The notes below the pieces were generated by a model, which saw only the letters and a list, made by a program, of their open reading frames with translations, searched no databases and was not told where the DNA came from. A stretch of 64,000 nt of DNA from Liolophura sinensis. Taxonomy: Eukaryota > Mollusca > Polyplacophora > Chitonida > Chitonidae. A program made the translations under genes and the position numbers. This document shows, piece by piece, positions 13,457-54,931 of the stretch. Numbering within the stretch: the first letter of the stretch is position 1; every line of letters starts with the position of its first letter. The DNA is taken from positions 24,537,513-24,601,512 of the forward strand of contig NC_088304.1 of assembly GCF_032854445.1 (NCBI RefSeq). The letters run 5' to 3'.

Positions 13457-13867
13457 ATGACAATATACGAGGTTGTTGTCCGTTCTACGTGTAGAAGAAA
13501 CGGTATTCCACATTTCTACGCAAGGACCAAAATGTTCAAGAAAGCTCGGAAAACCATGTTGGCTCCAAGTAAATTTATACTTAAGTGATGAAAAGGGTTT
13601 CTGAAAACATTAAGTACTGGTGTGCCTAGAAAAAGGAAATTGTCAGTCATTATTCCCATACTGTTTGAATTATCATTTGGACAAATAACTGTATACCTAT
13701 TAGTTCACCGACAGCTATAAATATCGAAAACTGTTGCAAAATGCTAGGTATAAAAACCGTTATATGCTCGTCAAAAAATTGACATCCAGAGTAACACCAT
13801 GCATGCGACGTCATAAATGCGTCATTTTGACATAATTTCCTTCTCAACTCTACATTACAGCGTCTCC

Positions 13868-14201
13868 ATGGTAGTGAACATGCTCTGGATTTCCCCTCTG
13901 CTTTTCTTGTCACGGTTACCTTTTACGCATGCGTTCACCTTAAACCTGTTGGCCATATTTGACATTCACCTTAAAAATATCGAGCCCAACTGCAGTGATC
14001 TCAACCCGGAAGCAGTTCGTCACGTGGGTGTGCTAGAACATGCAGTTTATCAATCAGCTTTCAACGAGACCTATGAACACGTGAACGTTATTGTGCACGT
14101 GCTCGACACGTGCGGCGACGCAGAGCGGTCGCTTCAAAAGCTTCATAATTTCGTCGCCGATGCCAAGGAACACGACAAAGATGAAGCGCTTTACGTACAT
14201 G
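13868..14201 (+). CDS. Three-VFT receptor exon 1: signal peptide and VFT1 start
   Basis: An acceptor (ctctacattacag) ends at 13860, seven bases before the ATG at 13868; a second in-frame ATG is at 13880. Leader 'MLWISPLLFLSRLPFTHA' is followed at once by the VFT strand 'LLAIFDIH' and later 'VHVLDTCGD'. It lacks the TC/YGCG block seen in the paralogs. Donor GTAAGT, phase 1. Confidence 0.8.
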
Positions 14202-31370: not shown

Positions 31371-31697
31371 CTAATATTCAAAATACGACGTTTCCTCCAC
31401 GGTGGTTGTTTTCTTCGTCGTTCCATCGTCCCCGGTTTCCACCACGGTGGTCTTTTTGGTTTGGCGATCCACCTTGCCGTCCGAAGGTCCTCCAAAGCTC
31501 GACAAGACTGGAGACTCGCCATCCAATTCCATCAGGGGTTGGCTCATGACAAGGTCACTTTCCAGCGGCCTGCCAAATGGGCGGTCCAGGCGCGAAGAAC
31601 TGAATGATGAAGCTGAGGATGAGGATCGAGACTTGGAGGGCGGGCCTTCCAGTCTGATTGGCAGCATTATTGGTTCCTCTGTCGTTATCGTCTCATG
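31371..31697 (-). CDS. Five-VFT receptor exon 14: C-terminus
   Basis: 327 nt to the TAG at 31373-31371, acceptor ggttcttccag, phase 0. It encodes 'HETITTEEPIMLPIRLEGP', a serine cluster ('SRSSSSASSFSSSR'), Thr-rich 'RQTKKTTVVE' and 'KKTTTVEETSYFEY'. It has many possible phosphorylation sites but no recognised domain. Confidence 0.7.
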   Translation of the reverse strand, partial: HETITTEEPIMLPIRLEGPPSKSRSSSSASSFSSSRLDRPFGRPLESDLVMSQPLMELDGESPVLSSFGGPSDGKVDRQTKKTTVVETGDDGTTKKTTTVEETSYFEY

Positions 31698-34600
31698 CTG
31701 GAAGAACCAATCAAAGCAAAACATGGATTTGATGGACATGTCGAGGTATGGAACATGGCAGACAAGATGCATCTGATTAACATATCGATATTGGCTAACA
31801 CGAGAACTTTTTAAATGATAGAAAACAAACAGGAGAAGAAAATCTGTTAACAAACTTTATGTGTTAAGCTGTTCTTCAAACACTCCTATTCTCCGGTTTC
31901 TGTTGTCTTGTAAACAAACTACACTTAGAGTTGTTAATTGTGAAGGCTTTTAAACAATTTATTTATTACAGATGGAAACACGCACAAGCTATTACCATAT
32001 TAACACTTCTGCATTTTTCAGCACTCTTCTGGATTTGCTGGTGCTGACTTACCCTGTGCCATTCTGTCCTCTGAGATTGAGTGTTAGGATCAAACGACAC
32101 CTCATCCACTTCGTACGACGCCGACAGGTCGGGTGGGATTGTGTCAGGTATGTCTGAAAGACGACATCAAATGGTAAACTACAGAAAACATCACATAAAA
32201 GTTATTGTTCCTCCACCCTAAAATCTTACATGTAGATCTCGTGTATGGCTAAAGTTATCTGGTGTTAGCATGCTGCTAGAAGGCTTCCTCGTTCACACAC
32301 ATGTATACACATAGATGGATACGACGATGCCCGTACACTGGCCGAGTAGAATCGAATAAACAACATCCGCTGAACAAAAGAATGAATGAATGACTGACTA
32401 CGTTGAACCCCACTTGGGCATTACTGTAGCCATATCGTGGGAGAAGACTTTGCTCTCTATACACTGAGGACAGCAAGCAGCAGAAGTATGGGGCAATGTG
32501 GACCCAAATACCTGTGTAGAGATTGGAGCAGTTTAATATTACCGGTTTAAAGCCCTCAAATAAAGCTTCGTTACACAAAAGTCCACCTACGTTCATGTGC
32601 AACTTATAGTCAAAAATGTGTACATGATCTTTCATAAAAAAAACTTCCGTGGTAATAATAAATCGAAGAAAACACAACGGGAGTAGAAATCAGGGTAGCG
32701 ACAGCATCCAATCTCATGCACTGGATTAGAAGATCATACACTACATCTCTCTGAGCCAGGAATTATTTACTCAAAAACGTTTTTAAGGGAACAAAAATAG
32801 TTCACTGTTATTTCAGAGTGTGAATAGTTAAAAAAATTCAAGACATTTATATTGCATTATTAGAGCAATTACCTTCTCTGTAGACGCGCGTTGTTCTGAC
32901 ATCCGTCTCGTAAACGTGCGGTTTGCGAGAAGTCAGAATAAACTGATCATCTGGTCGTCTCTCAACAGGCTTATCGACAAGTTCAGTGATAATCACGGGT
33001 TCTGGGTCTTCGTCTTTCCTCCCTACCCTAGCAGCAGGAACCTCATTCTGGTCGATCCGCTCCTCCGTCGATTTGTGCATCACAGTTGTCGTTCTTTGCT
33101 CCTTGCGCATGTCGACCAAAGAAGGTGCTGCCGCTGCTTGGTGACGAAGATGTCCGGTCTCTTGGTGACGAAAGCTTCCCGATTCGTGGTGACGAAGGTT
33201 TCCGGCTTCTTGGTGACCAAAGCTTCCCGACTCGTGGTGACGAAGATTTCCTGCCACAGCGCTCTCCGTCACAGCGGACCTGTTTAGCGTCGACGCTGCG
33301 TAAGCATTCTTTGGCTGACTGTAGATGCCTGATTGATTGCCGGATGACCGAATGAATGACTGATCCATGGAGCGTTCGGCCAGCGTGGCCCGGTGAGCCG
33401 CCATCGCTCTGTCACGTTCCAATGCTCGTTTTCGTTCGTTCATCTCCATATGTTCCGTTGCGGACATGTTTAGAACGGAATTTCTACCTTTGGTCTCTAC
33501 AAAAACAATAATAATTTATAATAATAAAACAACAATAATACACGATAAACAGTTTAGTTCCCTTTAATTTAAATTGTCCTGAATACTGGCTAAAATTCAA
33601 AATCACCAATTTTTGAATTTTTCGGATGTGCCCTGTCGAAGGAGGCTGATTATACAATACATATATAGATCTACATGTATGATGAAATATTAGGACACTA
33701 TAAAATATGTTGCACCAATTCATCCTTGTATTCAATATGGCTGCGAAGTCAGTGATTCGGGGGTTCAAGCAGGTATTCCCGGCCTAAGCGGTGTCACTTC
33801 CGGCTACGTTAATGGTGTCCATGTATAGATACATAACCAACTTCACTACAAATCCTACATTCTTCGTAGTCAGTAGTACATCGTAAGTACTATGTATAGC
33901 ATATGTATGTGCCAAACGGAGTAAATCGACCTTTGGTCTATATGTGAAGGCTCGCATGTCCCCTCTTTCTTTAACACAGCTGAAAGACTTTCAGCATAAA
34001 CAGAGTACATATATAGCGCTTTTCATCTTTACAGCTGTAAGTTTTTTGTCACGTGACCGCTAAATGTGGTGGAAATTGCGCTTTTTCGTCGCAAAATTAT
34101 ACGTCGCAGGAAAGAAATAAGAACAGATTCATGATCGGGACGTCAAACTACGTCGGGCAGCATTCTTACAATACTCGTACATTCATCCTAGACATAAATG
34201 CATTTAACATGCATTATATAACATGCGGATGTAAAAGTGCCAAATATGGTAAATCGGACTTTGGATAATTTTAAGCACTGCAACTCTCGCATTTATTAAG
34301 ACACTTCAACGATTTTCCGCACACATACAGTACACTTATAGCCCTTTGCAATCAGCCTTTTTTACAGCGATACCGGTTTTGTGTCACGTGACCGCCAAAT
34401 ATGAGGGAAAATTGCACTTTTTCGGACTGTAATGGCAATGCGCGAAAAAAACTGCATCGGAGAAAAGGAAAAAGGGCAGATTCGTGACCAGACCGTCAAA
34501 CTACGCCAAGCAGCGTACTTAAAATATTTTAATTTAGAAATTTTCAATCACTTGAGAAATTCGGTAAGCTGGGATCGAACTTTGACATAACTGACTGGCG

Positions 34601-35462
34601 TGAGCGATACAAGCCCTGCGCGATCTGCCTAATGTCAACTTTCCGACGTCAATCATCTTCGCCATTCAATTGCCCGAGACACCTCTGCTTCATAAAACAC
34701 AGCCGGGAGACGGCCAGCGTTTAAATCCTTCTGTAATTAGGTCAAGTCGGGCAATATTTTGTCAGCATCTCCCATACCTTCCAATGTATTATGTATATCA
34801 CTAAGTCCACAAGGCAGTCGCAATTTTTACTTCAAATTTCCATACACCTTTTCTTTACACTTATATCTTTCACAGGAGAGAATTATTGGTCGAAAACCAA
34901 TACATAACCAGATACACGGCTTTGAAACTTTCAGTGCGACCTTACGCCTTCTATCACTGAGACAGTTGGTGGGTCATTAGCATTCCTGCGAATAGATCGG
35001 CGAGCTTAATGATGCTGCGCTATGCCCAATGAGAAACGGCGATTCCATCTCGGCGACTTAGCATGCTTTTTGTCAGAAATAACACAAAAAACATAGTCCG
35101 TGTAACAGCATCTTTACACTTTCACGTCTGAATGCACGCGCCGCCCGTATACAGATTGACTGCTTTACTGGTAGCTCAGGCCTTGTTAGAAAGCGAACAC
35201 CTGAACCAGGGTACATGTAGATATCTGTCAATCACCAGGGCCGGGTTAACGTACAGTAAAGGCACGGTTTGTATAAAATAAAGTTAAATGTTGGAAATAC
35301 ATGTACAACCTGCACTGACTGGCCATGCAAAAAGTTAATGTGTACATTTATTTTTTGGGGTGGTGGGGGGTGGGGGGTGGTGGGGATGTCCAATGGGACA
35401 GGGTTAGCCAATCACAACTGCAGTACAAACTACATAATCAAGAGAACATATACACCATATAT

Positions 35463-35493
<31 letters not shown>

Positions 35494-38400: not shown

Positions 38401-41400
38401 ACCACGAATTCATTTTTTTAAAACATCAGAAGCAAATTATGATTTGTCAGTTAAGCGGCTGACAGCAAATACTCCTGATAGTATAATTTCGTCAGTAGTT
38501 CTAGACCTACCGTATTTTCCAGTGTATATCTGATACAGAAGCCACAGTTTCCGCAGAGGGAATAAAATCAGCAGAATCGTCCCGTTGAGAAGATTTGCAA
38601 TGGCTACAGTTGCATCGCGATACGGGGCGGTCGCCATTGTCGATATGATCATCCACGCCACAAAGATGGCGCCTGTGCACAAACAGGAAGCAAGCAGCCA
38701 TCTGGACTCGAAGTGGTTAATGTCCTTCAGGAAGGAGATGGTGGCGAAGATGATAGTGGCCAATATAAGCAATATGACGAACATAAAGGAAAGGACAAGA
38801 CCCACGTCGTAGAGAAGGGGAGGGTTGCACCACCAGTAGTCATGCGGCGGCGTTGTGACTCTAACCAAGGTGGCTCCAGGAGCAGTGATCACCAGCCAGA
38901 GAATCCCGATCAGAATCTGGATGGCCACAAGTGTCAAAGCGACGAGAAGCAGCGAGCAGGCGCTCGCTACACCTTTGTATTTTCGTTTGCCTATGCTGTA
39001 GTCATGCCAGGTGTAGCGCCAGTTATCGACGGCCTTCACTAGCAGCGCTGCGAAGCAGATGGCGTAGACGACACCCATGAGGAAGCGTCTGGCGCCACAA
39101 GATGCGGCGCTTGCCGGGATGAAGAAGGCGAAGTTGACGAGGAAGATACCGAGGATTCCCAACAGGAGCATGAAGCCGAGCACCGTCGTTCCAGAGCGGA
39201 TCTGATAGAGGAACAACAACAGCACGAAGACGATAAGGGTGATGAGAATCATGATGCAGGTTAGAATACAGATGACAACGGCCCATACAGGCCATTCTAT
39301 GACCCTGCGATATGATTTTGCTCCCTCTGCATTCACCGTTTCTTCCAGAACGTAGTAGTTCCGGGGTGTCCTCACGATTGAACCCCACTTATCCTCCCCC
39401 GTAGCTGGAGCAGTCTCCCCACCCAGGAACCTACATCTGCACGACAAACACCTAGATTCCACCACCAGACCATCCACACCGGTATAGTTGCCATCCTGGT
39501 CAAATTGTATTGTGCCGTTCCAACGACCGATCTGTTGAGAAAATAGACGATGAAAAAAAACATACATAAAGAGCAAGACTAGAGCGGAAACCACCGTGTG
39601 ATGGTTGGCCTATTAGGGCTTTATTCTTAAATGTTAGCAAGTTACACACAGTAAAGCACCAAGAAGGCTTAATAAGGTATTATTCAGTATGTACACATAC
39701 ACTAGTGCGGTGCCCGATGATATAATTCAAATTTCTCAAACGGTGTAAATGACACAACCCTACTTGATTCCATTCACAGCTAAGGAAAGTATTTGTGTGT
39801 TGTCCTCATTGCCTTATTTGCACACGCAACATGTAACATTCGATTACTAACGACTAGGCCATTATTTGACAGGGGCCTCCGTGACCCATTGGTTATCGTG
39901 TTTGCGCAGCAAGGTAACACAGGAGACTCCTGCCAACGCGATAGCTGTGTGCTGTAGTTCAGGTCATGCTGGCTTCCTCCCCAGTTGCACGTGGGAAACT
40001 GCCAGCAACCTGTGGATGAGGATTTCCGCCGGGTTTTTGTCCCAAAAAACCGCTGGTCCCCAATGTATAAGTAGAATGTTCTTGGGTGTGGCAAAAAACT
40101 CCATTAAAATAAATAAATAAAACCATTACGTGATTTTCTTGACTGAAAACTGCTTCTCTCTTACATGGTAGTCTACCAGCTTTACTTTCTATATTTATAT
40201 AATTATATCTTACACACTCCTTGGATTTTGGGTTGTTTTGGTAATGGATTTTGAAATTGAAACGCCTTTTACTGATCTAGGAGAGGTATACGAATGTCCG
40301 ATTCATTTTTCTCTGATACAGGCAATTAAACCTCACGAAATCATAAGTTTGCCTTACCTTTTGTAAGAAGGGTTCCCCTGTGTCCGGAACCTTGTCGACG
40401 CTGTACAACAAATAACCGGTGTTTCCATATCGTCCTGGCAGATACTCGTACTGGTAACTGGTCAACTCTGCTCGACTTATTTGCAAGGTGTCCATTATTT
40501 CCGGCCATTTCGTGTCCCAGACGTGCTGATAGATTTCTGAGCGAAGATTCGCATTTTCTCGTGCACACTGTTCGAATGACAGATCTCCACAAGTCTGAAA
40601 GATCTTGTTTAACCCAGTAGCCATGGTGTAGGTCGAGATAATCGTGTGGAAGACGTCAGGGTCGTGCCGAAGGGACGCCAGATTTAACCTCTCTGTCTTG
40701 TCACAACGTGATTTGTACAAGTGACTTTGAGAAACCGAAGTGTTCATCAGGTGACACGCATGCGCATGCTGATAGAACTCGTCGAACCAGTCATCAGGCA
40801 GCCCGTGTCGATTGGCATCAGCATACCCAAGTGCAGCTTTATACTTCAGGAATTCAGGAATCTGTGGTGAATATGTCTTTAGAGTTATCCCGTTGACGAG
40901 GTATTCCCCGAGTGCAGAGAAAGACTCGTCCCCTAGCCCCCAGGTATGAAGGCCTATTGTCACCAGCTTCGTGTCGGGTCGCATCGCTCGTATTCCCTCT
41001 AGCATCATTTCCGAATGTTTTGGAGACGTCAGCCAGACGACGACTCTAGCACCTCGCTTCCCTTGTTCATCCAGAGTTGTGACGTGTCCATTGGCCACAG
41101 ACTGTTCGTCGTTGTCCCTTAACACAAGAATGGTGCCTATACACACGGCTTGTTCCAAAGACCCATCGCCCATAGCGTTCCTCAGCATGTAATTACTGAT
41201 GGTCCTACCCCTGGCGTCGTCGGAATACACCAGAGATATATACGTCCATCCCTGGGACCGTAAGACGTCCAGTATAGCCTCCCCTTCCAAATCGTAAGGC
41301 GGTTTGGTTCTGAGGAAATAGGGATACTTGTCGAAGTCGCTGAGGACGGGCGACACGGCGTTGGGGGACACCGATGTCACAGCCATGGGAGTCAAGATTC

Positions 41401-44400
41401 GATTCACTACCAGCGCGTTGTCTTCACCGTGGGAGATGATCCCCATAATGTTAGCCAGATCCACGCCAGACCCTTGCCTCAACCACGTATTACAGTAGCC
41501 GTTCCCTCGAATTAACCCAAGGAGATCTGGATACAATTTCACGCTTCGGGAACAAGTATCCAAAATAACTCCACCGATTTCGAAGCCGGGTTTCACGGGA
41601 TTCACCAACTTATCTAGGGTGTATATAAAAGCCAAAACGTTGTCAAACACCGACTTGTGGTTCATCCCACCACACCGGAATTCGTCGCTTTCTTGCGCTT
41701 GGTGCACGTCAAACACAGCGACAATCTTCGGGACGACTCCCTTCCAGCTGCTCCCGGCTCCAGTTGGATCCGGCCACATATGGAGCCTAGTGGTCTGGTC
41801 CCGGATACCCGGACATTCGTTGCACGTGTCTTGGCGGTCACAGCTGCCGTTCCAGGACGTCTGAAAACCACGGGTGTCCAACGTTGTTCCGCTGTATTTA
41901 CCGATCTGTTAAGGATGGATAAATTAAACGTACAAATCGTTAACATTTGAAGACAACATTTACATCTTCAAAAACCTGTTTAAAGATTGAAAAATTAAGT
42001 TATTAAAGCTTTCTATTTGATTCCAAATAGTTTTGCATTATTTTAAAGGACACTGATAAATACTTCCATGTAAACAGGAAAAGTTGAGAACACTACTGTT
42101 TACTGTATTATATATACTGGGACACAGATGAAACTTGATAAGTGATAGATGTCCTTGGCATAAATATTAAATAAATGTGACCGGATTATCCGAATTTCTC
42201 TCTATATATATACTCACATCTTTATAGTTATACGTAGCCGATGCTGATGTTGGCTCTATGGAATATAGCGTGTAGCCTTTGTTTCCCGATCTCTTCTCTG
42301 TGAAACGAAAGTTGGCGAAAGCTTCGTCTTGGAATCGGGCTTTTAAGGCTCCTTCAAACATCAACTCACGCCGGCGAGAATCACTTTCCCTGAATTGCCG
42401 GCACATCCCTGTGTAGTTTTGGCCGCAGAGCTCTCTCAATGCGTAGTCCACTCCGAATGCCGCCGCATACACAGCGTTAGTCACGTGGAGAATATCCGGG
42501 TCCTGTAGATAATTCCCTGACGTCACGATGTTCTGATGGCGTATATCACACTGAGCTTTCCCACCGATTCGGGTCTCTTCGGAGGCCGTGACGAGACAGT
42601 TATGAATGGCCTCGTAGTATTCTTTGAACCAGGTGTTGTCACGCTCGCTTATGAGTGTTTTCTTCTCTAAATATCTATCAAAGAGGGGAATGTCGACTTT
42701 CTCCACGTTGATGATGACGGACCCGTAGGCGACATCTTCTACTCCTTCGAGCAGCACTTCATTTCTATTCCAGGAAACCGTACCAATGAAGAGAAACTTC
42801 CCTCTAGCATCTGGGGTCCGCTTGATACCCCGTAAGAACTCGTTAATATACCCTATGTCAGCAAATACAATGACAACATTCGATGTGGGGTTCTCTAAAA
42901 GATTCGCCACGGCTTCCGTAGCACTTTCCTTTGTCACAACGCCCTTATCTCTGAAGGTCACTGTGTGCGAAACACAGACGCGTTTTGCTGCTGCCTTCTC
43001 CAGAAAAGCCTGTGAGCTCAGCTCACCATAACTCGTCGGCGATCGTAGTACCTGAACATATCTCAAATCGTAGCTGTCCAGGAAGGCCAAGATGGCATCG
43101 GATTGCTCGTCATCTATGGGGACTGTCCTGGCAAACATGGGGTACCGGAATTGATCCGTGAGTTCAATGCTGGTGGAACCGTAGCTGATTTGCGGTACGT
43201 CCAGGCTCTTGAGAACTCGCGCTAGAAAGCGGGACTGGTCGCTTTCCCGGGCGGCAACGTACCCTATGATATCAGCGGGGGAAATGTCGGTGCCGTTTTT
43301 GCTGATCACGGTTTCGCCATTGTGGATGTTGGCAGCCAGGTAGGTTGTTCTCACGGCGGAGTCACACGAGTCCAGGCCAAGACCTCCAAGAGTCACGCCG
43401 TTCAGGATGTCCCTAAACTGTCCGTGTTTGCGGTTCACCTTGTCTAAGGCGTATTTGAATGCCTCTATGCTCTGATAGCCGAATATCGTCTTGATCCTCC
43501 CGCAGCGGAATGGCTCAACAGACTTGTAGTGGATGTTGAAAATACCTGCGTTATGAAATATACAAAAACTGCTTAACTGATGGATAGATTGCTTGATCTA
43601 TATTGTATGATTTACAAGATTGGGTATCCGGTCGTTCCACTAAGAATTTTCCACATTTTCGTGAATCCATTAACAAGAGTATTAATTCTTCCTGATGGTG
43701 ATTGAATCAAATGCCTAGATATCAATTACAAAATAATTTCGTTCTCTGGGTTAATACTACTTGTATTTTACGCGAATACTTGGTATATGTATGTACACAA
43801 ATTCATAGATATCACAGATATTTACACAGAAATGTGTGTACATTTATTTATTTGGTTGGTCGTAAATTTGTCTTAACTTCATCTTAATTATTTATTGATC
43901 TACTTATTTACTTTTTGCTTTAGTGCTTTCGCGAAAATCTTTTTATTTTAGACACCATATATGTGAAACACCTGATATAAACTTACCTGCGATATAGACA
44001 TCTCCAGGAATGTGATCAAAGAAGCCTTGTGGTGTACAGGTGAGACATGGTTGATTACAGGTTGACTTGATGGTGGAGAACCTATCCAGTAGGTCTGACC
44101 TGCTTATCACAAGCCGCCCGTTGTAATCTGAGCCCACCTGTCAGAAAAGACTTATCAACATAAATTTCCATAACTTTTTCAGCACCATTTAAAAGTTAGG
44201 AAAAACGTAACAAGAGAACTGATTCTTATGGGCGTGTAGTCTCTTTTTATGGAAAGGCGACATTTCGAGAAACAAACTGCCCGTTGACCTGATAACGCTC
44301 TCAGTTTCTACACCGAAATGCCATCTAGGAGTGAAAGGAAATGGTACGTCCATAAGAATCTGTTCCCTGGTAAAATCTTTATCTCCCTGACTGGTGTTTA

Positions 44401-47400
44401 GTGCCATAATGCACATTCCTGAACTCAGTACGAAGGTTAAGTTCACGGGTCGCGACCGGTGTGGTGTTACCGCCATTACATCCATTACACCAAGTCTGTC
44501 CTAAAATAAACTATAAGCTGAATGCAAGTCACAGAGAGAAGAAGGTCGTTGCTCAAAGTAGCCGACGTGTCCAATAAGCCACCAACAGCCCTTGAAAATG
44601 GTGCAAATATTACGGTCATGAGTGAGATTGGAAATAAAGCTCCAACATGGTCATGAATGGGGAATATTTGAACAATTTTCCATCTTCGTATTGATGTCTA
44701 TCTATTGATTTATTGACCCTGAATGACTATTTGATCCCACTTCAGTAAAACGCAAAAGCATCGACATGCAACCGTCTTCATTCCAAAGTTGTCCGCGTTT
44801 GGTATAAATTAATTTTCACTGACATATCCATCAACATATCTGATTGTTAAAGACTTTAATAATAAATAAATAAATAGGAAGACAAATCTAAAATACTGGA
44901 TGGTCACATGGGACACGCGAATGAACACTGTACTCAAAAATACCTCTGCTTAATTTTCAGATATTCTAATCAAATTAAACGGATCCAAGTATTTGAAATT
45001 GAAATCGATGTGCTAGACGCACCAGCACATTTATAAGGCTGTTTAGAACTGTTAATTTGTTTGGCACACTGTGGAGTCGGCGACTTTAACTTCAAGAAAA
45101 AATACACACACTGTTTAAGACTGCAAAACTTGGATGTGGCCGCACTTTCGATAAGAGTTTCATAAATACTTATTTAGGTATATTTAGATGTTTACTACTA
45201 ACCGTCCATCAACAAAATGCATTGTAATACAATGTAATAGACCACGTATAAATTACCCCGGAAGGAATGTTTTCAGGCATATTAAGAGAGAAATGTGCAC
45301 ATTGTAATAATTTTATACTTGACTCTTTAAAGCGAACTGTTTTTTTTTTTTGCAGACTGCAAAGTATTTTGATTTGAGAACGACGAAAATGATTGTAGTT
45401 CCAGGTGTCACATCAATGCTCTGAAGGGTAGTCCCTCTTAAAAATTCAAATAGTTACGCTAGTTCGCTGATTTGGAGCCATTTTATACTGTTAAACTATG
45501 ATATTTCTTCACGTACATAAGTATTTATATGCATCTAGGTATTAAAAATATTGTAAACTGAGCCCACACCGTAGCTGAAATAAACCAAATCCTCAGCCTA
45601 ACCTTCAATGGAATGTATAGTTATGATTTAAAGCCCCAGTGGCAATATTGCAGCCATATCGTGGAGAAACCGGCATTGGAATTACTAGTAAAAGTTAAAG
45701 CTGACATCTGAAGCGATACTTTAGCATTCAGGAGACTGCTTTTACGCAACTGAGATTCACACTGGAATAAAATCTAAGTTTACGCTGAATTACCTGTAAA
45801 GTGCAGGTATCAACTTTAACTGATATGGCTACAGCTTACCTTTACGGATCTGCCAGGTTCTTCTATTACGATATCAAAGTTCTGGTTGACCCGTCTTCCG
45901 GTGAAACCAAACTTCCCACCACCAGGAGTATTAAACGAGACTTGGGCGAGATTCTGCGAGATTTGCTGATTGGTGTCACGTGATGCTCGGAACTCGGCGC
46001 AGCGGCCATTATAGTCAACGCCACATTTATCCTGCAGGGTTTTGTGCACGGCGGCGGCTAAGGCGTACACACCGTGAATCGTGTTCTGCACCGTACTGTC
46101 TTCGGGCAAAGAACGGTTAACTTCCACGGCGCAAGATTTGTTGTACTTTGTTGATCCGGCTAAATCGCACTGAAAAACCGACTGATAATAAAAGCTGTAG
46201 AAGCCGTCGCTTTCCAGGGACCTGGTCGACAAGAACTTCCGAAAATCGCGAAGCTCGGATACCTGCTGTCTTACGCTGAGAACGTTCTTGGCGATGGGCT
46301 TGTTGTTGAATCTCATGGGTTCTATGGTGAAAAAGAGGAGGCTATCAGAGGCAGAGACAGCAGACGAGGCTTTTTGTAACCTCTCGGCGTACCTCAAACT
46401 GTCAGCGATGACAACCACGGCCTTTGCTAAGTCACCGGTGAGCATCCGTAGATTCAGGGTGGCATCATCCGAAAGTTTCACGGCTTTAACGAGACACAGG
46501 CCCTCCTCTGCGGCAACCTTTCTCAGGATGTCCAATTTCTCGCTACCGCCGGACTCGGGAGAGTACAGAGCTTGAAAGTACTTGTACCCACGGGACTTCA
46601 CCATTCGAATGATCGTCATCGCCTTCTGGTTGAAAATGGCTGCAGTAGAGTACATCATCCTAGAGCGCGAAATCTCCGTTTCCCCAATGGACGAGGCCTC
46701 AGATGCGACCACCGGTGTTCCAAATGACTGCAGGTTGGACGCCACGTTGAATACGTCAGATTGCGAGTGACTGAGCCAACCGCGGAACGGCGCCATGTCG
46801 ACGTAGAGATCTCCCTGAAGCGGATTCGCACCGGCATAGATTTCGTTAACTAGACCCAACGCTCTTTGGTCACTATTGCAGTCGTCCAGGACCAAGCTTC
46901 CCAACGTGACGTTGTTCAAAGGGACTGGGGCTTCCCCAGAATTAACCTGACGAAGAGCGTACAACACGGCAACAGCGTGCTGGTAGCCATTTTCCAATTT
47001 CTGATTATCGCAGGCAAAGGGATTCCCGTTGGTACCCATGATTCCGATTAGAGCCCCCAGCATAACATCTCCTTCCTTGTAGATGTGAGGATGGCGGTTG
47101 ACCAAGTAAGAGCATTGACCACAGAATCCTTGGCAGGAATAAGCGTTCTTTTGTATGTTCCAACTGGGAAGAATAGGTTCCATTCGAAACCTCCGGTGGG
47201 AATATTCTGCAATCTGCAAATAAAACTAGCTGTTAGATGTACGTGGACAGAAACCGTATACAATACTATGTTAAATGCAGACCATTTATTTAAATCATTT
47301 TTCTTTAGTACTACACCAATTCTCCGAACAGAAAAAGAAGTAGCACACAGTGTCACGCCAAACTTACCAAATCATGCATCCACTCTGATTACAGGTACAC

Positions 47401-50400
47401 ATTCTGTTTTGTGCAGAAAAACTATATTCGAACGTTCTCTAGAGAGATGCCAGTTCAAACCTTGACATAATATACACACAAAGAATAGTTTATGCTCCTT
47501 TTCTTTTTCTGCTGTATTGTGGAAACTGTAAGCATTGAAAATACAGAAATTCAGACTCTGGCAACATGTGTCATAATATTTTAAAATAAATTTGAGCGGC
47601 AATGAATAATATTACGTTCGTCGATGACGTAAGTTGGCCCCAATTAAGGTAATTTAGATGACACACCTTAGTAAAGTTTTCGCCTGGTTTGATTTTGTAT
47701 CCAAGAATCTGGATTACGCCTTCCTTGGTTTTGGCTTCTTCTGTTGCCAAGTTTTCTTGTAATCGTTGTCGAAGTTTTATTGTGTCAAGTGCGCTTCCAC
47801 AGTTTTGGCAAATTTCATTGTAGGCCTTCTTCACATTGTTTCCCATTAGAGTTACGGCCCTTGTTACAACCTGTGAGGCAGCCTTGGCGGTGTCACCATA
47901 CAGACTGGAGTCTGTGAGGGACTGGCTGCTGTTGCAGGGCTGATTCAGAGAACCAACTTGACACTGAAACGTCCGCTGGTACAGCTCGATGACAAAGCGA
48001 TTTTCGGTCCGCTGTGGGTTTAGCTGTCGTAGATATCTCTCGTATTCCAGGTTGGCGGAATCGCTCATCCTCACTTTGAAAAAGGTACCTTCCTGGGAAG
48101 GGAAAACTTGGTTGCTCGTTCCTTCTTCCGATTCCGTCGTTATGACAACGAAGTCCCCCTTAGCGGAGGTAGCTCCGATGAGCCGCAGTACTGGTTCCGT
48201 AGTGTCAGCACGGCCAAATACAACAGTGACTTTAACACCGGCGATTTGCTTCAGCTTTGATAGAATTTCTGACGCATCTCCGTCCACCCCGATTTCCAGA
48301 GACTGAGCAATGCAGATAGACGCTGCATCCGCAGCCTCGGTGAAAGCGGTCACTTTGGAGCGCCCATAGGTGTCCCCGCTGTGTATAACTTGGACAAAAG
48401 TCCAGTTCATGGCCTGGAGGAAATTTGTGATCGCTTCCGCTTCTTTGTCGTCCGTGGGTACTCTTTGGGCGTAGTAAGGATAAGCTGTATGGTCACTGAG
48501 ACTTTTATCCGCAGCGACCGTGCCCACCACAGGAGTTTTGATCAGAGTCGAGTATTGCGCCACTGTCTTAGCCATGTTGTCTTCCAGCATGTCCACGGTA
48601 CCAACAACTCGGTTGGAGTCTATGACTTTGTTTGACCCATCCCGAAGCTGCAAACCTCCAGAGTAGAAACGGTTTAAGAAATCCGTTACCCTGGCTTCGC
48701 TCCTGCATACATCTACGAGCAGACTACCCACCCTAAGCGGAGAGTTGTCGGCGTTCTGGGCAGCCACCGACTGCTGAAACGCTATGGCGCGGAAGGAGTT
48801 CGTCGCAACGAGGGTCCCACAGGTGCCGGGATCTGAGCCTGCATCGTGAAGGCTAGTCAGGCCAACGATGATGACGTCTCCAGGAGTGTACCAGTACTGG
48901 AGATGACCGGATGTCAAGCACTGACGGCACTGGTTTCGCGAGCATCCTAGCTGCGGGACGGCACTCAATGGTCTGAAACCAGCCCTGTCGTACACTTCAA
49001 TTTTCGACCTATCCAGCTCAAGTCGACCTCGTGAGAAGGTTCCCACCTAAGAAATGTAAAGAAAATAAAATATGTGGAAGTTTGACAGTAGTATTGTACA
49101 ATATACAATCATAAATCCCTTGGACAAAATATTTATGGTTTTATATTCACATACATGTATACTATCATTTCCATACTTTTATTACCATAACCAACATTTG
49201 GTACATTGGATTTCAGAACAGTAAAAATAAGTTTATGATCTATATTTGTCGAGACATTAGATGACCTTAGATAAAAAGACATCTGCCTCAATAGAGGCAG
49301 ATGTAAAAGCATGCATTTCAACGCATGAATATTTGAAACAGATGCATTCATATGTTATATAGGATTGACAACATTATAGCATCACACGCCATTTACTATA
49401 TATGACATCGGTGAACACGACGTTTGAAATACAACCAGCAAATGGCAATTTAACCGTTTTAATTTATTAGATTTATTTATTTATTTATTATTTGATTGGT
49501 GTTTTACGCCGTACTCAAGAATATTTCACTTATACGACGGCGGCCAGCATTATGGTGGGTGGAAACCAGGCAGAGCCCGGGGTAAACCCACGACCATCCG
49601 CAGGTTGCTGTCGGACCTTCCCACTTACGACCGGAGAGGAAGCTAGCATGAGCTGGACTTGAACTCACAGCCACTGCATTGGTGAGAGACTCCTGGGTTA
49701 TTACGCTGTGCTTACGCGCTAACCAACTGAGCCACGAAGGCCCCCTTTAATTTATTATAAATTAGTTTGACAACGCTTTTAGAGTAGATGTATGTCGATA
49801 TGTCACGTTATGTACTATCCCGGTTACCTGCTTGTGAGACAGTTGTCCTTGCCTCCTGTTGTAGTTGTAAATGGCAAAACTGTGACTTTCACGGTTGTCA
49901 CCGTTTCCATCGAAGGCTATGACGGAGCCTGCTATGCCAGGTATGCCATCCCCAGCTGTCATTCTGTAGTTCAGGCTCCGGAGATAATTTTTGAGGAAGT
50001 TTTCGTGCGACATATTCGACAGTTCTGGGCATGGTCCACTAGGTCTCCCTCGACACCGATCGCTTCTGGCCTTTTGCAGGGCGGCGGCGAAGGCGTAGAC
50101 GGACTGGATGGCCTCGCGGTAGACGGAATGGTCCAGATCGGCGATGTAGGCGTCACGTCTCTGCGCTTCGTTGAGCTGGTTACATAAGCGTAGGAAGCTA
50201 AATTGAGGGTTCGCGTTGCCAGGCAGACGACAGCGGAATCTTCCCATGTACCACTCCTGGAACCAAGGGTTTGCCGGAGGCGGGCGTTGTGGATCAATCC
50301 TGGCCAAGTGATCAATAAACTCCGCCACAGCGCTCTCCTGTCGGAAAACCGATATGGTGCCTGGTAATAATCGGGAGTTTCCGCTGATCTGGTATGGGGA

Positions 50401-53400
50401 AATAATCTGGAGATCGCTGTCACCAGGCAGGATGATATCCAAGACTTGAAGAACCTGGGATACTTCCGGTTCCGCTACTGCCAGAACAATCGCCCTGACG
50501 TTGGAATTGACCAATCGCCGGAGCTCACTGTTTAGACTGTCCTGATTGGCGTTGTCATGGGCAGCACGGGCTTGTTCTGCTACGCAAATTCCCACAATAC
50601 CTCCGTTTTTCTTGAGAAGTGAAGCAACATTTCTTCCAAGCTCATCATCACCATAAATTACTCCAATGTGCGTCCATTTCAGATTCACTAACGTCATTAA
50701 CATCGCCTGTGATATAAAATATAGCACAGAATGTTACTTACTGGAACAATTTCACTTACATGTCATAACTTAAACAGCCGTATGTGTGACAAGGCTTACT
50801 CTACTTTGTCAGATTTGTGATAGATTTTATAGGTGGCAGGAACTTTCATGTTATGATAGGTTAAATATGATAAATCGATCATGGTAGACACCCATACGGC
50901 GAGAATTTTCATTGTGTCAGGTGCCATAACTTCTGCGTCTAACCAATCCAATGCGGGACACATAATTTAAATTTGAAAATGTGGAACACGTAGGTGGTTT
51001 TTCGCCTCGTTTCTTTTATTTGGGCCAACAGGATGACTGTGAAAAATGATCACCGTGTCCAGGAGGGGCTGTGGTCGATGCCAATTTAGGTCATAATCAG
51101 CTGACTAAATTGAAATGAACAGCCGCCCAGCCATTACTCTGACACAATTTTCTTTAACACTACACACTCCTATAGACATGCAGTTTTGCAGCAGAATCGA
51201 TTTACATATTTACCTCCACTAGTTCTGACACCGGTGCTCCAGTCCGCACTAAGTTGGGATAGACCAGTTTGTCACTGAGTTTGGCGTCGTTTGAGGCGTA
51301 TGCCACCTGTGGAATACTGGAGTACCCCAAATACTTAGCCATCTCGGCTGTGACGTCACTGAAGTATCCACCTATAGCTCCTGGAGAGAAAAGAAAGGCA
51401 ATGTGTAAAATCCAATAAAAAGTCGAATTATCATGTATCTTGTGTAATATTAATGAATCAGTACACGGTAATGTTTTCCTCGGAATTCAATGGTTCCGAA
51501 ATTTGATCTTACCCAGCCCAAGGTGATATGAACAATTGTTATGTTTACTCCCTCTATTAGGCTTTTTCTGTGTAATTCAAATCCGGACTATTATAAACAC
51601 GAATGTCCAACACGCACACATTTATCTTCTCTCCCAAACCCTTTCGTTTTAAGTCCGACCTAATAAAAGAATGTAAGCTTTTTGTCAGAGAAGAACCCCT
51701 CATCAGCACGATTCGTAATACCAGAACTAAGCTTGTGGAAAGTGCACAGCTTCATATCACTGTAGATATTACGTCCACCCTTAACCTGTGTTGGGTTTGA
51801 TATTTTGAAGGACTAACCGTCCGTGTCTTTCTCTGCAAGTAAACACCGACTCACCCATTAACTCCCACAATGACGTTGAGATAAACGAACGATGCCAAGG
51901 TTATGCAACCATGGCACACATATAGAGGAAAATGGCGTCAAATTGCAACAGGGGCTGTTTCTAAACAGTCAGGTCTCGCGGGGCATGAATGTTGTAGGTT
52001 ACCTCCCTTTCCAGAAGATGGACTTTTCATAATGATTCTCACCTAAAGCTAGTTGCGATGCGTTTGCCTGACATTGCCAGCCGCGGGACTCCTGGAAGAA
52101 TTCGTCCATTCCGGCCACGGCCACGTGAGGGCTAGAGCAGGAGTCGTAGGCTTTCAGACCTGTGGGCAAATTATCGTTCACTCCTTTATTTATTTATTAG
52201 TTAGTTAAGTTAGTTATTTGAATGGTGTTTTACACTGTACTCAAGAATATTTCACTTATACGACCGCGGTCAGCATTATGGCGGGAGGAATCCGGGCAGA
52301 TGGCGGAAAAAATCCACAACCATCTGTAAGTTACTGGGAGGCTACCCGTGTACAGCAGGAGAGAAAGCCAGTATGAGTTGGTCTTGAACTCACAACGACC
52401 GCATTGGTGAGGGCTCCTGGGCCATTGCGCCGCGTTGGCACGATTGCCCCTTTAGTATGTATCTGTAATGGTTGAGGGATTTCCCTCTGTCGAAGGAATC
52501 ACAAGGATTTGAACTCGGATCTCAGCAGCCAAATTTCGGCGCTCTACCAACTGAGAGAAAACCCCACTAGCTACTGCTAGTATAAACTCTGGAAAGCTGC
52601 TCCCGTTACAATCCTCCCCACTTAAATTCTTCCCCTCTCCCGAGGCACAGCAACGTTAACAGGCCCAGAGCCCCGTACTTCTTGGAACCCGTTAGATCAC
52701 GGCACCATTGTAATGGTTGAAGGATTTCACTACGAGGGACACAAAGGATTCGAAATCGGGTCTCTGCAGCTGAAATCCAGCGCTCTACACCTAAACTGGG
52801 CTTAAGGGAAATTCCCACTAACTAATGCTACTATAAACACTGGAAAGCTACTCCCGTTACATATAATTTATTTATTTATTTGTTTATTTATTTGTTTGTT
52901 TGTTTATGTATTTATGTATTTATTTGTTTGTTTGTTTATGTATTTATGTATTTATTTGTTTGTTTGTTTATGTATTTATCTGATGAAAATGATGAAAATG
53001 TTCATGACTTGTTTACTCATTCGACGGATGTCAGGGGTTTTCTTCATGGGTGGAGGTAACTGGAGTGACTGTAACAAACCACCAGCTTTCGGTAACTTTA
53101 ACACGTATAAAAGACAAGTGGTCTGCAATTAACGTAAGTTTACACATGAACAATGAAATGTGTGGATAAATTTAAAAAAGAAAGGCAAAGAGTATTATGT
53201 ATGTATGTATGCTTAGGGTTTTACGTCATACTTAATTTATTTTTCAGTCATATGACGGCGGAGAATCATTAAGTGTGGACACATATAATTTGTCTTCTTG
53301 TGGCGGTGCGAGACTATGCCACCAAAATGCTGCCGCCACTGAAGTGTCACACCGAAGACATGACACCCCACCCATTCGCATTATACTGACACTGGTCCAA

Positions 53401-54931
53401 CCAGTCCTGTTTCCCTCCTTTAACCTATCAGTGCCAAGCGCCAAGCGAGGCGCCAACAAGTATCAAGTCTTTGGTATGACCCAACCTATGTTTTGTCCTG
53501 GGTCGCTCGACTTAGAGGCGGCCACCCTATTCATTAGGCCACCGTGGCGGTGAGGCAAAGAATAAACCCGAGAAGAAGAATAAATGGTGTCCGTGTGATA
53601 AAAACAAACTGATAAATCTGAGAATTATTTAGCAAATCTTGAAGGATAAGCTAGTGCAAATTGAGTGTGAATGGCAAAATATCATAAGCCAAATGTTTAT
53701 ATCAAAATAAGTGGAGAGACAAAAAGAGATTAGGAAATTTGGGAACCTTGAAAGAGAGGTTAAAAGCAAAACATTTATAACATATTTAGGGAATAAATAC
53801 AAAGTAAACTCTCACGGGAGAAACATTCAGACTCACCCAGCGTGACACCCGGGATAAAGTTGACATCATTAATCCTCTCCACAGCGTAGCGGGCTGCTTC
53901 GTACGCCGTTATTCTGTACATCTCTGTCAACCAAAAACACCTGAATACAGCAACTCATGAACACAGAATCGCATGAAAACAGACGCAAATGAAGCCTTTC
54001 CAATGACACCCTTCTTTGTGCCTGAATTGCTTTTTCCTCTAGATTTATTCCCCTTCCGTTGCAACTGAGGTGCGTTATGTGCAGTCACTGTTTCTCGTTG
54101 TACATGAGTCTTCTGTCAATAATAGCCCTCTGACCAAGGTCCTGATATAGAGGAAGCTACAGTGGTAGAGCATCGTCTCTCACCGAAATCCAAACTACAT
54201 GACATAAAGCCCATGCTACATGATCGAGCTATCTGAACCAAATTAGCACCCCAATGGGAACTGTATTGTGTCGACATGTCAGAATTTATAATCATGTGTT
54301 GTGGGCTTATTTATCTGTTTAATTTCTTACATCGTTAATGGCCAATCGCATGACAAACTCCCTGGGATAAAGACGTCAAATCGACGAGAGTTGGATTCGA
54401 ACACACTACCTAATATCGATCAAGAGCCAATATGCAACTAAGAGCAAAACCCTTTTGTTCCCTAGGCCGTCAAGAGCCATGTTTTCTAAAATAAAGCTGT
54501 TATGCTTTAATAATTTAAAACAATGTGTGCATTTTAATCTGCATAAAGCCCCGTTGTATGTTGTGCGTGCGTGTGTGAGTGCAATGACAAGTATCTCTAT
54601 GTTCAGGGAATGAAACAAAATTCATTTCTTTCAAAGTTGTGCTATGTGCTAACATTAACTGAGAAACACCTCTATTGAGTTTTACTGACACAGATGTTTT
54701 AAAATCAAATCTCTTTATTAAGTGGCTTGACATACCTGTTCCTACATCACCGCAGCCATACTCGTCTTGACCGGAAGTCCTGATGGGAAAAACTCCCGCC
54801 AACAGGACATCGGCGTCTCCCCTTACTGTCCCAAATCTCTGTCGTCTGTCGCATGTTTGCTGGGTGATCCTTTGTGACGCCACCACGGCGACCAGCGCCA
54901 TAGCAACCAATAAGGTCCAATGGAGGCCCAT
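31371..54931 (-). CDS. Five-VFT class C G-protein-coupled receptor, about 3,099 residues
   Basis: Fourteen exons from 54931 down to the TAG at 31371: 54931-54736, 53923-53837, 52159-52043, 51380-51214, 50706-49828, 49046-47667, 47213-45840, 44137-43987, 43545-42218, 41905-40358, 39531-38511, 33496-32873, 32153-32053, 31697-31371. All 13 junctions have GT/AG borders and matching phases; the sum is 9,300 nt. Order: signal peptide, VFT1 (residues 1-482), VFT2 (483-942), VFT3 (943-1400), VFT4 (1401-1893), VFT5 (1894-2409), each joined by a short three-cysteine linker, then seven helices (about 2410-2750) and a Ser/Thr-rich cytoplasmic tail. No frameshift or internal stop is present, so it is probably functional. 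The fold and membrane topology place it at the cell surface as a ligand receptor; the ligand cannot be read from sequence. Usual metabotropic receptors have one VFT and about 900-1,200 residues. Confidence 0.88.
32053..32153 (-). CDS. Five-VFT receptor exon 13: tail
   Basis: 101 nt between acceptor gtctttcag and donor GTAAGT, phases 1 and 0. It encodes acidic 'DIPDTIPPDLSASYEVDEVS' and 'SQRTEWHR'. Confidence 0.7.
32873..33496 (-). CDS. Five-VFT receptor exon 12: cytoplasmic tail with 16-residue repeats
   Basis: 624 nt, phase 1 both sides, acceptor tttttgtag, donor GTAATT. It is joined across a 5-kb intron. It encodes a charged, low-complexity tail ('MEMNERKRALERDRAMAAHR') with about two and a half copies of a 16-residue unit ('GNLRHHESGSFGHQEA'), then 'VIITELVDKPVERRPDD'. 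No known domain. It could belong to a separate gene, but phases fit the receptor. Confidence 0.7.
33895..34525. repeat. Diverged tandem duplication, ~330 bp
   Basis: Two copies, about 33895-34190 and 34225-34525, share in order 'gccaaa..ggtaaatcg', 'tttcagc/gca', 'tcacgtgaccgc', 'attgcgctttttcg' (copy 2 'attgcactttttcgg') and 'cgtcaaactacg'. No coding potential is evident. Confidence 0.6.
35460..35645 (-). mobile_element. SINE fragment (family A)
   Basis: A long (ttta) run, then 'gattggtgttttacgccgta' and 'acgacggcggccagcattat'. The tRNA-like head is absent. Intron 11 of the five-VFT gene. Confidence 0.85.
37000..37240 (+). mobile_element. tRNA-derived SINE, full length (family A)
   Basis: Head 'ggggcctccgtggctcagtc', 'gttagcgcgctagcg', box B-like 'gagttcaagtcc', tail 'gagtacggcgtaaaacacca'. 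The best-preserved copy in the window; antisense within intron 11. Confidence 0.9.
37721..37917 (-). mobile_element. SINE, internally deleted (family A)
   Basis: Tail 'gattggtgttttgcgccgta' joins directly to 'agccagcattatggtgggag', so the conserved 'ctcaagaatatttcacttat' block is deleted. The head end stops at 'gaggctcctgggtcg'. Confidence 0.8.
38511..39531 (-). CDS. Five-VFT receptor exon 11: seven-helix domain
   Basis: 1,021 nt, phases 0 and 1. It opens 'IGRWNGTIQFDQDGNYTG', linker 'CLSCRC', then seven hydrophobic segments, among them 'WAVVICILTCIMILITLIVF', 'LGFMLLLGILGIFLVNFAFF' and 'LVALTLVAIQILIGILWLVI'. ECL1 'CGARRFLMG' and ECL2 'YWWC' supply the conserved disulfide pair. TM7 ends 'LILFPLRKLWLLYQIY' without the PK-x-Y of mGluRs. 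All seven helices sit in one exon, unlike the plus-strand paralog. Confidence 0.9.
39872..40122 (+). mobile_element. Diverged SINE (family A), intron 10
   Basis: Head 'ggggcctccgtgacccattg', middle 'ggtcatgctggcttcctccc', tail 'cttgggtgtggcaaaaaact' and an A/T-rich end. An older copy than the others. Confidence 0.7.
40358..41905 (-). CDS. Five-VFT receptor exon 10: VFT5 module
   Basis: A single 1,548-nt phase-0 exon, the longest module. It opens 'IGKYSGTTLDTRG', linker 'CDRQDTCNEC', then 'VVPKIVAVFDVHQAQESDEF', 'YPYFLRTKPPYDLEGEAILD', 'LRSQGWTYISLVYSDDARG' and closes 'GRYGNTGYLLYSVDKVPDTG'. It lies next to the membrane domain. Confidence 0.9.
42218..43545 (-). CDS. Five-VFT receptor exon 9: VFT4 body
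   Basis: 1,328 nt, phases 1 and 0. It encodes 'GIFNIHYKSVEPFRCGRIKT', 'FKYALDKVNRKHGQFRDILN', 'VPQISYGSTSIELTDQFRYP', 'WFKEYYEAIHNCLV' and 'NKGYTLYSIEPTSASATYNY'. The 'SYGSTS' loop is the most glutamate-receptor-like of the five pockets. Confidence 0.9.
43987..44137 (-). CDS. Five-VFT receptor exon 8: linker opening VFT4
   Basis: 151 nt, phases 0 and 1, acceptor cttttctgacag, donor GTAAGT. It encodes 'VGSDYNGRLVISRSD', linker 'CNQPCLTC' and 'GDVYIAG'. Only this module of the four added ones has an extra intron after the linker. Confidence 0.88.
44138..45839 (-). other. Intron 7 of the five-VFT gene
   Basis: No exon seen. A long minus-strand open frame at 44189-44485 has no splice logic and no family resemblance. 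A dispersed-repeat scrap ('gcagccatatcgtgg', also near 32431 as 'gtagccatatcgtgg') is present. Confidence 0.45.
45840..47213 (-). CDS. Five-VFT receptor exon 7: VFT3 module
   Basis: A single 1,374-nt phase-0 exon. It opens 'IAEYSHRRFRME', linker 'CQGFCGQC', then 'GDVMLGALIGIMG', 'AVAVLYALRQVNSGEAPVP', 'FYSFYYQSVFQCDLAGS' and closes with 'GKFGFTGRRVNQNFDIVIEE'. Confidence 0.9.
47667..49046 (-). CDS. Five-VFT receptor exon 6: VFT2 module
   Basis: A single 1,380-nt phase-0 exon. It opens 'VGTFSRGRLELD', linker 'CSRNQCRQC', then 'GDVIIVGLTSLHDAG', 'YPYYAQRVPTDDKEAEAITN', 'FLQAMNWTFVQVIHSGDTYG' and closes near 'YKIKPGENFTK'. A complete ligand-binding module in one exon. Confidence 0.9.
49472..49744 (-). 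mobile_element. tRNA-derived SINE, full length (family A)
   Basis: Complete inverted copy from the (ttta) tail through 'acgacggcggccagcattat' to the head 'gccttcgtggctcagttgg'. It lies in intron 5 of the five-VFT gene, 84 bp from exon 5. Confidence 0.9.
49828..50706 (-). CDS. Five-VFT receptor exon 5: rest of VFT1
   Basis: 879 nt, phase 0 both sides. It begins 'AMLMTLVNLKWTHIGVIYGD' (the lobe 2 opening strand) and ends with 'FAIYNYNRRQGQLSHKQ', the usual VFT closing strand. Donor GTAACC. Confidence 0.9.
51214..51380 (-). CDS. Five-VFT receptor exon 4
   Basis: 167 nt between acceptor cttttctctccag and donor GTAAAT, phases 1 and 0. It encodes 'AEMAKYLGYSSIPQVAYASN' and 'LSDKLVYPNLVRTGAP', the LB1 pocket region of VFT1. 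Confidence 0.85.
52043..52159 (-). CDS. Five-VFT receptor exon 3
   Basis: 117 nt between acceptor ttgcccacag and donor GTGAGA, phase 1 both sides. It encodes 'GLKAYDSCSSPHVAVAGMDE' and 'FFQESRGWQCQANAS' of VFT1. Confidence 0.85.
52192..52452 (-). mobile_element. Diverged SINE (family A), intron 2
   Basis: 'atggtgttttacactgtact', 'caagaatatttcacttatac' and 'ttgaactcacaacgaccgca' mark an older inverted copy between exons 2 and 3. Confidence 0.8.
52460..52862 (-). mobile_element. Two copies of another tRNA-derived element
   Basis: Copies at about 52466-52610 and 52709-52859 share 'taatggttg', 'ggatttgaactcggatctc' (second copy 'ggattcgaaatcgggtctc'), 'gcgctctac' and 'actggaaagct..tcccgttac'. 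On the minus strand 'ctcagttggtagagcgccga' resembles a tRNA head. Confidence 0.55.
52862..52985. repeat. Compound (tttg)/(tttatgta) simple repeat
   Basis: 'ttatttgtttgtttgtttat' and 'gtatttatgtatt' recur about three times. The open frame over it is low-complexity and not a gene. Confidence 0.8.
53190..53560 (-). mobile_element. SINE (family C)
   Basis: The minus strand carries a tRNA-like start ('ggtggcctaatgaatagggt'), the body shared with 17257-17540, and a tail 'tgactgaaaaataaattaag' like that of family B. Intron 2 of the five-VFT gene. Confidence 0.65.
53837..53923 (-). CDS. Five-VFT receptor exon 2
   Basis: 87 nt, phase 1 both sides, acceptor ggttgacag, donor GTGAGT. It encodes 'AYEAARYAVERIND' and 'IPGVTLG', the first VFT helix. 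Exact length match with exon 2 of the left gene. Confidence 0.85.
54736..54931 (-). CDS. Five-VFT receptor exon 1: signal peptide and N-terminal block
   Basis: ATG at 54931-54929 follows an acceptor-like 'gcttcag' by two bases. Leader 'MGLHWTLLVAMALVAVVASQ', then QQTCDRR, 'VLLAGVFPIRTSG' and 'YGCGDVG'. Donor GTATGT, phase 1. It matches exon 1 of the left gene. Confidence 0.85.

Follow-up and report, generated by a model that had tools for sequence, protein, structure and literature searches.

A predicted class C-type receptor gene with five tandem Venus flytrap modules in the chiton Liolophura sinensis

A stretch of 64,000 nucleotides of the genome of the chiton Liolophura sinensis, an armoured marine mollusc (contig NC_088304.1, positions 24,537,513 to 24,601,512, forward strand; hereafter the window) carries a gene, called gene C here, whose predicted product joins five Venus flytrap (VFT) modules, V1 to V5, to one seven-helix domain. 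In the accepted layout of class C receptors there is one VFT per chain and the receptor is a dimer, and in the branch of the metabotropic glutamate receptors (mGluRs) the VFT is coupled to the helices via a cysteine-rich domain. The sequence analysis confirmed gene C as one real class C-type receptor gene with five VFTs. Of the class C hallmarks, the 7tm_3 domain, an N-terminal VFT and a signal-like segment were present, and the one-VFT layout was absent; by its predicted domains gene C belongs to class C, but its layout is not the usual one of any named subfamily. Two paralogues that appear to share the five-VFT layout, A and D, flank gene C.

Gene model and domain layout

Rebuilt from the raw sequence, gene C comprised 14 exons on the minus strand of the window, from 54931 to 31371. 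All 13 introns were of the GT-AG type, the phases were compatible at all 13 junctions, and the coding sequence of 9,300 bases (3,099 residues) contained no internal stop, the sole stop being terminal. An earlier sequence-only reading of the same DNA, which had claimed 14 exons, matched phases at 13 junctions and about 3,099 residues, was borne out by this rebuild. The predicted chain started with a signal peptide, continued with five VFT modules and then seven hydrophobic segments, and ended in a long tail. With 19-residue windows and a hydropathy threshold of 1.5, one N-terminal signal-like segment and seven others were detected, the seven all lying within residues 2494-2735, and no segment between the VFT modules exceeded the threshold. 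VFT1 was split over exons 1-5, VFT2, VFT3 and VFT5 each occupied one phase 0-0 exon, and VFT4 was made up of a short linker exon and one long exon. The Pfam profile PF01094 (ANF_receptor) matched V1 to V5 with 141, 80.9, 75.9, 117.8 and 87.4 bits (cut-off 25.4), and PF00003 (7tm_3) matched exon 11 with 81.6 bits (cut-off 33.5). Pfam and hydropathy thus agreed with the earlier claim of a signal peptide, five VFTs and one seven-helix domain in one chain, and the Pfam scan that had been proposed as its check, for repeated PF01094 ahead of PF00003, placed all five modules and exon 11 above the cut-offs.

The exons are listed in window coordinates; contacts are the five amino-acid-backbone contacts treated below.

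54736..54931, minus strand: exon 1, start codon, signal peptide (MGLHWTLLVAMALVAVVAS) and start of VFT1; similar signal-like exons in A and D
53837..53923, minus strand: exon 2, VFT1, phase 1-1; 17 of 28 residues identical to A
52043..52159, minus strand: exon 3, VFT1; exon counterpart in A
51214..51380, minus strand: exon 4, VFT1; exon counterpart in A
49828..50706, minus strand: exon 5, remainder of VFT1; V1 with 1 of 5 backbone contacts
47667..49046, minus strand: exon 6, entire VFT2, phase 0-0; 2 of 5 contacts
45840..47213, minus strand: exon 7, VFT3, phase 0-0; 0 of 5 contacts
43987..44137, minus strand: exon 8, linker with cysteine cluster leading into VFT4; counterparts in A and D
42218..43545, minus strand: exon 9, VFT4; 4 of 5 contacts and the highest conservation among the modules (50-51% to A); likely ligand sensor
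40358..41905, minus strand: exon 10, VFT5, phase 0-0, 0 of 5 contacts; at the position of the canonical cysteine-rich domain
38511..39531, minus strand: exon 11, seven-helix domain (7tm_3) preceded by a short linker
32873..33496, minus strand: exon 12, part of the cytoplasmic tail, holding a 24/48-base repeat; less certain
32053..32153, minus strand: exon 13, tail; less certain
31371..31697, minus strand: exon 14, tail rich in Ser/Thr, with the stop codon; less certain

The predicted tail (exons 12-14, 350 residues, beyond a 5 kb intron) is the least secure part of the model. The coding score of exon 12 (mean log-ratio 0.162) exceeded the highest (0.01) of 225 values that were computed in three frames for stretches presumed to be non-coding; the score hardly discriminated between frames, with 0.162, 0.157 and 0.127 for exon 12 and 0.169, 0.004 and 0.269 for exon 14. 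Neither exon 12 nor exon 14 had matches beyond itself in the gene cluster at E < 0.05, and exon 12 matched no Pfam family. The repeat in exon 12 (window 33139-33255) encodes a repeated LRHHESGSF-type peptide.

Paralogues and integrity of the gene

Paralogue A was located on the minus strand at C10:24541012-24524645 (C10 being the contig that holds the window), with its first exons inside the window. Exons E1-E11 were all found (11 of 11), in the same order and with GT-AG introns, and encoded five VFTs and seven helices. Exon lengths equalled those of gene C in four of the 11 (E2, E4, E5, E9) and differed by 6 to 45 bases in the others. Paralogue D lay on the plus strand between about window 63880 and C10:24621990 and likewise encoded five VFTs and seven helices; the same search recovered seven of its 11 exons (E4, E5, E6, E7, E9, E10, E11), and by reading of the sequence E1 (with a signal-like start) and E8 were clear, E3 was probable and E2 was a weak candidate only. 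This exon-by-exon matching imposed the phases of gene C on A and D, so that phase agreement was a search condition; independent support for the two exon series therefore comes from the identity of the proteins, from the four exons of the same length and from splice sites that are plausible. The predicted five-VFT layout is common to A (in full) and D (largely), which makes gene C a member of a small family of at least three paralogues.

From V1 to V5, A and C were 35, 26, 35, 50 and 36% identical, and C and D 30, 21, 25, 38 and about 31-32%. V4 was the best conserved module in both comparisons; the seven-helix exon, 50% identical between A and C and 34% between C and D, matched V4 in the A-C pair only.

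Ahead of the acceptors of exons 6, 7, 8, 9 and 10 the frame stayed open for 0, 4, 1, 18 and 1 residues, all free of Met, so a separate start could be placed only within a module or in some exon outside the present model. The start or stop between modules that the sequence-only reading had named as evidence against one chain did not appear: no in-frame stop was present, and the frames of exons 6-10 had no upstream Met. A merged gene model, with the VFT and helix exons as separate genes, was disfavoured by this absence and by paralogue A. Upstream of exon 11 there was an open stretch of 26 residues with one Met, from which the locus might produce shorter isoforms, such as a stand-alone seven-helix protein, the full chain being rare; skipping of the phase 0-0 exons 6, 7 and 10 would also be possible without a frame shift. 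Against such isoforms stand the identical exon series in A, and largely in D, and the missing upstream Met in exons 6-10, and we consider them improbable as the main output of the locus. Still less credible, and in our judgement very improbable, is a pseudogene or an artefact of assembly or exon joining: 9,300 bases were free of stops, the 134.5 kb cluster contained no N bases, the paralogues were conserved and the substitution pattern was of the coding type. Between A and C, all 11 exons compared showed more differences at codon position 3 than at positions 1 and 2, the codons having been paired via the protein alignment, which favours an excess at position 3.

Ligand-contact residues of the modules

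The ligand contacts were read in a MAFFT alignment of 29 module rows with mGlu1, mGlu3 and mGlu7, and in a second one of 15 module rows with the same three receptors and the chiton's own mGluR. We take S165, T188, D208, Y236 and D318 of mGlu1 (in the numbering that we assume) to be the contacts to the amino-acid backbone. The roles of R78 and K409 in mGlu1 agree with excerpts of PMC6307864. The chiton's own mGluR kept five of the five backbone contacts, and seven of seven when R78 and K409 were included. For V1 to V5, the number kept out of five was 1, 2, 0, 4 and 0 in gene C, 0, 4, 2, 4 and 1 in A, and 3, 4, 2, 4 and 4 in D (V1 of D being a partial module). In V4 of gene C, S165, T188, D208 and Y236 were retained and R78 and K409 lost, which amounts to four of the seven glutamate contacts of mGlu1; its other modules had 0-2 of seven, or three of seven for V2 if an Arg at R78 is counted that was placed there by the 29-row alignment only and not by the 15-row alignment. 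According to the 15-row alignment, other residues stand at R78 and K409 in all modules of A, C and D that span these positions (V1 of D is without the R78 stretch), and glutamate is disfavoured as a ligand of A, C and D for that reason.

HMMER alignments agreed on the contacts for V4 of gene C with mGlu7, for V1 and V2 with mGlu3 and for V5 with mGlu1. The best PDB matches were mGlu3 (V1, V2), mGlu7 (V3, V4), mGlu1 (V5) and mGlu2 (seven helices), with top scores of 181 bits for V4 (mGlu7) and 119, 87, 90 and 84 bits for V1, V2, V3 and V5; of the five modules, V4 stood nearest to the solved mGluRs. The ten binding lobe pairs per dimer that had been suggested from the sequence lose ground for gene C, in which four of five contacts are found in V4 but 1, 2, 0 and 0 in V1, V2, V3 and V5.

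Presumed coupling region

No Pfam match to NCD3G, the nine-cysteine domain, was obtained in exon 11, and none of the eight NCD3G matches in the genome (seven above the cut-off) lay in the cluster. By its sequence, gene C has no recognisable nine-cysteine domain. The linkers between modules hold short cysteine clusters (CSRNQCRQC, CQGFCGQC, CNQPCLTC, CDRQDTCNEC), in which a likeness, and no more than that, to the first cysteines of the nine-cysteine domain can be seen. In the alignment of exon 11 to mGlu2, the Lys and the Cys of transmembrane helix 3 (TM3) coincided with a Lys and a Cys of exon 11, and a Glu and a Cys were near, not on, the positions of the TM6-side Glu and the loop-2 Cys; the roles of these four mGlu2 residues are presumed. 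The end of TM7 reads PLRK in A, C and D, at what we take to be the place of the motif named PKxY.

Age and origin of the array

In a tree of 29 VFT modules, the V1 modules of A, C and D grouped together with starred support, and so did those of V3, of V4 and of V5. Because these modules group by position, the split of A, C and D came after at least four positions of the array had become distinct. Two VFTs were also found at each of five other loci, at C4:10.57 Mb, C3:12.43 Mb and C7:41.61, 53.45 and 58.88 Mb. Their V1 exon, entered in the tree for four of the five, joined the V1 group, with that of the C4 locus on a long branch, and their second VFT was one long open frame in all five. At four of the loci, an exon-like open frame 0.8 to 2.1 kb downstream had a start with a Cys cluster resembling the linkers of gene C, one membrane helix and a short tail of 7, 9, 15 or 27 residues past the helix; at the C4 locus no such frame was found in the stretch read. 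The exon-by-exon genome search, whose counts are lower bounds, gave no 7tm_3 match within 0.9 Mb of the five loci. Possibly they represent a separate family of two-VFT single-pass membrane proteins. The array may have grown by tandem duplication of a phase 0-0 exon encoding a whole VFT, starting from a two-VFT ancestor; we infer this as the simplest history. Exons 6, 7 and 10 are phase 0-0, and two-VFT genes persist in the genome.

Neighbouring genes and repeats

The window part of paralogue A consists of the following exons.

3314-3500, minus strand: exon 1 of paralogue A
1361-1447, minus strand: exon 2 of paralogue A
reaching the window edge, minus strand: exon 3 of paralogue A

A 35-base minisatellite of 21 copies (window 647-1380) adjoins exon 2 of paralogue A, and ten of its units match the final eight residues of that exon, which looks like an amplification of the exon end. 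Between paralogue A and gene B, an intron-rich class C-type gene on the plus strand (window about 13817-28283), there are about 45 tandem copies of a 52-base unit (window 9156-11480). In gene B the PF01094 profile restarts at least twice (pieces 16155-16499, 19574-21092 and 21570-23114; three of six below the cut-off), and 7tm_3 pieces follow downstream at 24898-25476 and 27621-28280; gene B probably carries two or three VFTs. At gene E (C10:24642399-24646503), one VFT was found ahead of the seven-helix exon, and the end of TM7 reads FLPKVRQL, as against PLRK in A, C and D. Dispersed short repeats with 'ACGGCGTAAAACACCAATCAAATAAATAAATA' or its complement near one end occurred in both orientations (for example at window about 49480-49745, 37720-37920, 37000-37240 and 35460-35640) and resembled short interspersed nuclear elements by eye. 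A transfer RNA scan of the window found none.

Place among known receptors

With mGlu1-8, gene C shares the VFT modules and the seven-helix domain, and its best PDB matches are members of this group; it differs in having five VFTs instead of one, no nine-cysteine domain that could be found, R78 and K409 lost, and PLRK in TM7. A further comparison is with class IV of the mGluRs, for which excerpts of PMC6307864 describe kept backbone contacts, replaced R78 and K409 and a prediction that glutamate is not bound; a fly member of this class, mXR, is a taste receptor for L-canavanine according to part of PMC2695807. V4 of gene C largely keeps the backbone contacts, D318 excepted, and has R78 and K409 replaced, an incomplete match that compares residues alone. 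Class IV sequences are well conserved overall in the same excerpts of PMC6307864; gene C differs from them in its five VFTs and in having no cysteine-rich domain. In the GABA-B receptor, too, no cysteine-rich domain stands between the VFT and the helices (PMC12716839, in part), but this receptor has one VFT. The seven-helix exon had 47 PDB matches with E up to 0.01, and none of them was a GABA-B chain.

VFTs are re-used in other membrane layouts by invertebrate Venus kinase receptors and truncated mGluRs, as described in portions of PMC3703292 and PMC3206071. There the VFT is combined with a kinase or with no signalling domain, whereas gene C has seven helices; no intracellular tyrosine kinase of the kind in a Venus kinase receptor was found in gene C, in which the seven-helix domain stands instead and the Pfam scan of the tail covered exon 12. 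Two stacked flytrap modules in one sensor chain likewise occur in EvgS and CdgH, which are bacterial enzymes and for which no homology is claimed. The earlier reading knew of no described family with the five-VFT layout. No animal seven-helix receptor with tandem VFTs was found among the papers listed by keyword searches of the open-access literature, which is weak evidence of absence; the flytrap sensors met there were bacterial or trypanosomal. Several VFTs ahead of seven helices were not described in the portions seen of PMC12716839, PMC4302439, PMC3703292, PMC12005716, PMC9138782 and PMC6267866. A database may already contain a predicted protein of the five-VFT layout on which nobody has commented.

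Proposed working and alternatives

The reading that we prefer, although we would put its being right about level with its being wrong, is that of an amino-acid-type chemoreceptor that senses via V4, is coupled via V5, is extended outward by V1-V3 and has an array derived from a two-VFT ancestor. The cleft of V4 would sense an alpha-amino-acid-like ligand other than glutamate, a choice suggested by a pattern largely like that of mGluR class IV, with most backbone contacts kept and R78 and K409 lost. V5, its binding residues gone, would sit between V4 and the membrane and couple the two in place of the cysteine-rich domain, which is missing. V1-V3 would make the receptor longer on its outer side and may help it to dimerise, to reach further or to bind a second ligand. 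The stalk role that the sequence-only reading had proposed for stacked VFTs fits V1, V3 and V5 of gene C, with 1, 0 and 0 of five contacts.

Several observations weigh against this proposal. The V4 signature is incomplete, since the equivalent of D318 is lost in V4 (Val in C, Ile in A), and V4 of D retains D318 and loses Y236. Four of five contacts also occur outside V4, in V2 of A and in V2 and V5 of D, so a reading with one sensor may not hold family-wide. The assignment of residues depends on alignments at about 20-29% identity. Identity of the seven-helix exon between C and D (34%) is hardly above that of exon 5 (33%) or V5 (32%). In the tree, V2 did not form one group and the fork joining V2-V5 was weak (84/82). 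The AlphaFold2 models, for which the alignment consisted of the window's own modules, were poor, with a mean predicted local distance difference test (pLDDT) score of 46.6 and 50.0. A Foldseek search with the V4 model returned extracellular structures of mGluR3 first (E 1.5e-17), and was given little weight because the TM-scores were about 0.4.

Several VFTs of a chain could instead bind different ligands that the receptor sums, as the earlier reading had also suggested. Five modules above the Pfam cut-off, the separation of four of the five module positions across the paralogues, which suggests separate roles, and the four of five contacts that A keeps in both V2 and V4 and D in each of V2, V4 and V5 are consistent with such an integrator, and a VFT can bind other ligands through other residues; in gene C, however, V1, V3 and V5 keep 1, 0 and 0 and V2 two of the five contacts. 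Summation is not favoured for gene C, where few contacts are left outside V4, and survives better in A (V2, V4) and D (V2, V4, V5); overall, we hold it to be possible but clearly the weaker account. A bolder version, doubtful and placed slightly lower, would make these genes a separate class C lineage in which one seven-helix or single-helix anchor reads out two to five VFTs jointly, several modules per chain bind distinct ligands, most clearly in D, and V5 replaces the cysteine-rich coupler, the whole being a combinatorial chemosensor. The array might also be a long arm for adhesion or co-reception that pairs with other VFT proteins and is not a chemosensor. Most clefts of gene C have no amino-acid signature, and the two-VFT single-helix frames at four loci would form a possible set of partners; yet the seven-helix exon is as conserved between A and C as V4 (50%), which argues for signalling, and we find this role unlikely.

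Taken by its sequence, the five-VFT receptor is real, conserved within its own genome and unusual. Five flytraps, conserved helices and no recognisable cysteine-rich domain would suggest coupling via a stacked, apparently ligand-free VFT, and the five-VFT chain would be a natural experiment on how VFT closure is transmitted to the helices. The combinatorial chemosensor, if true, might account for some of the chemical sensing of chitons or of molluscs, and the five-VFT genes are a candidate chemoreceptor family in chitons.
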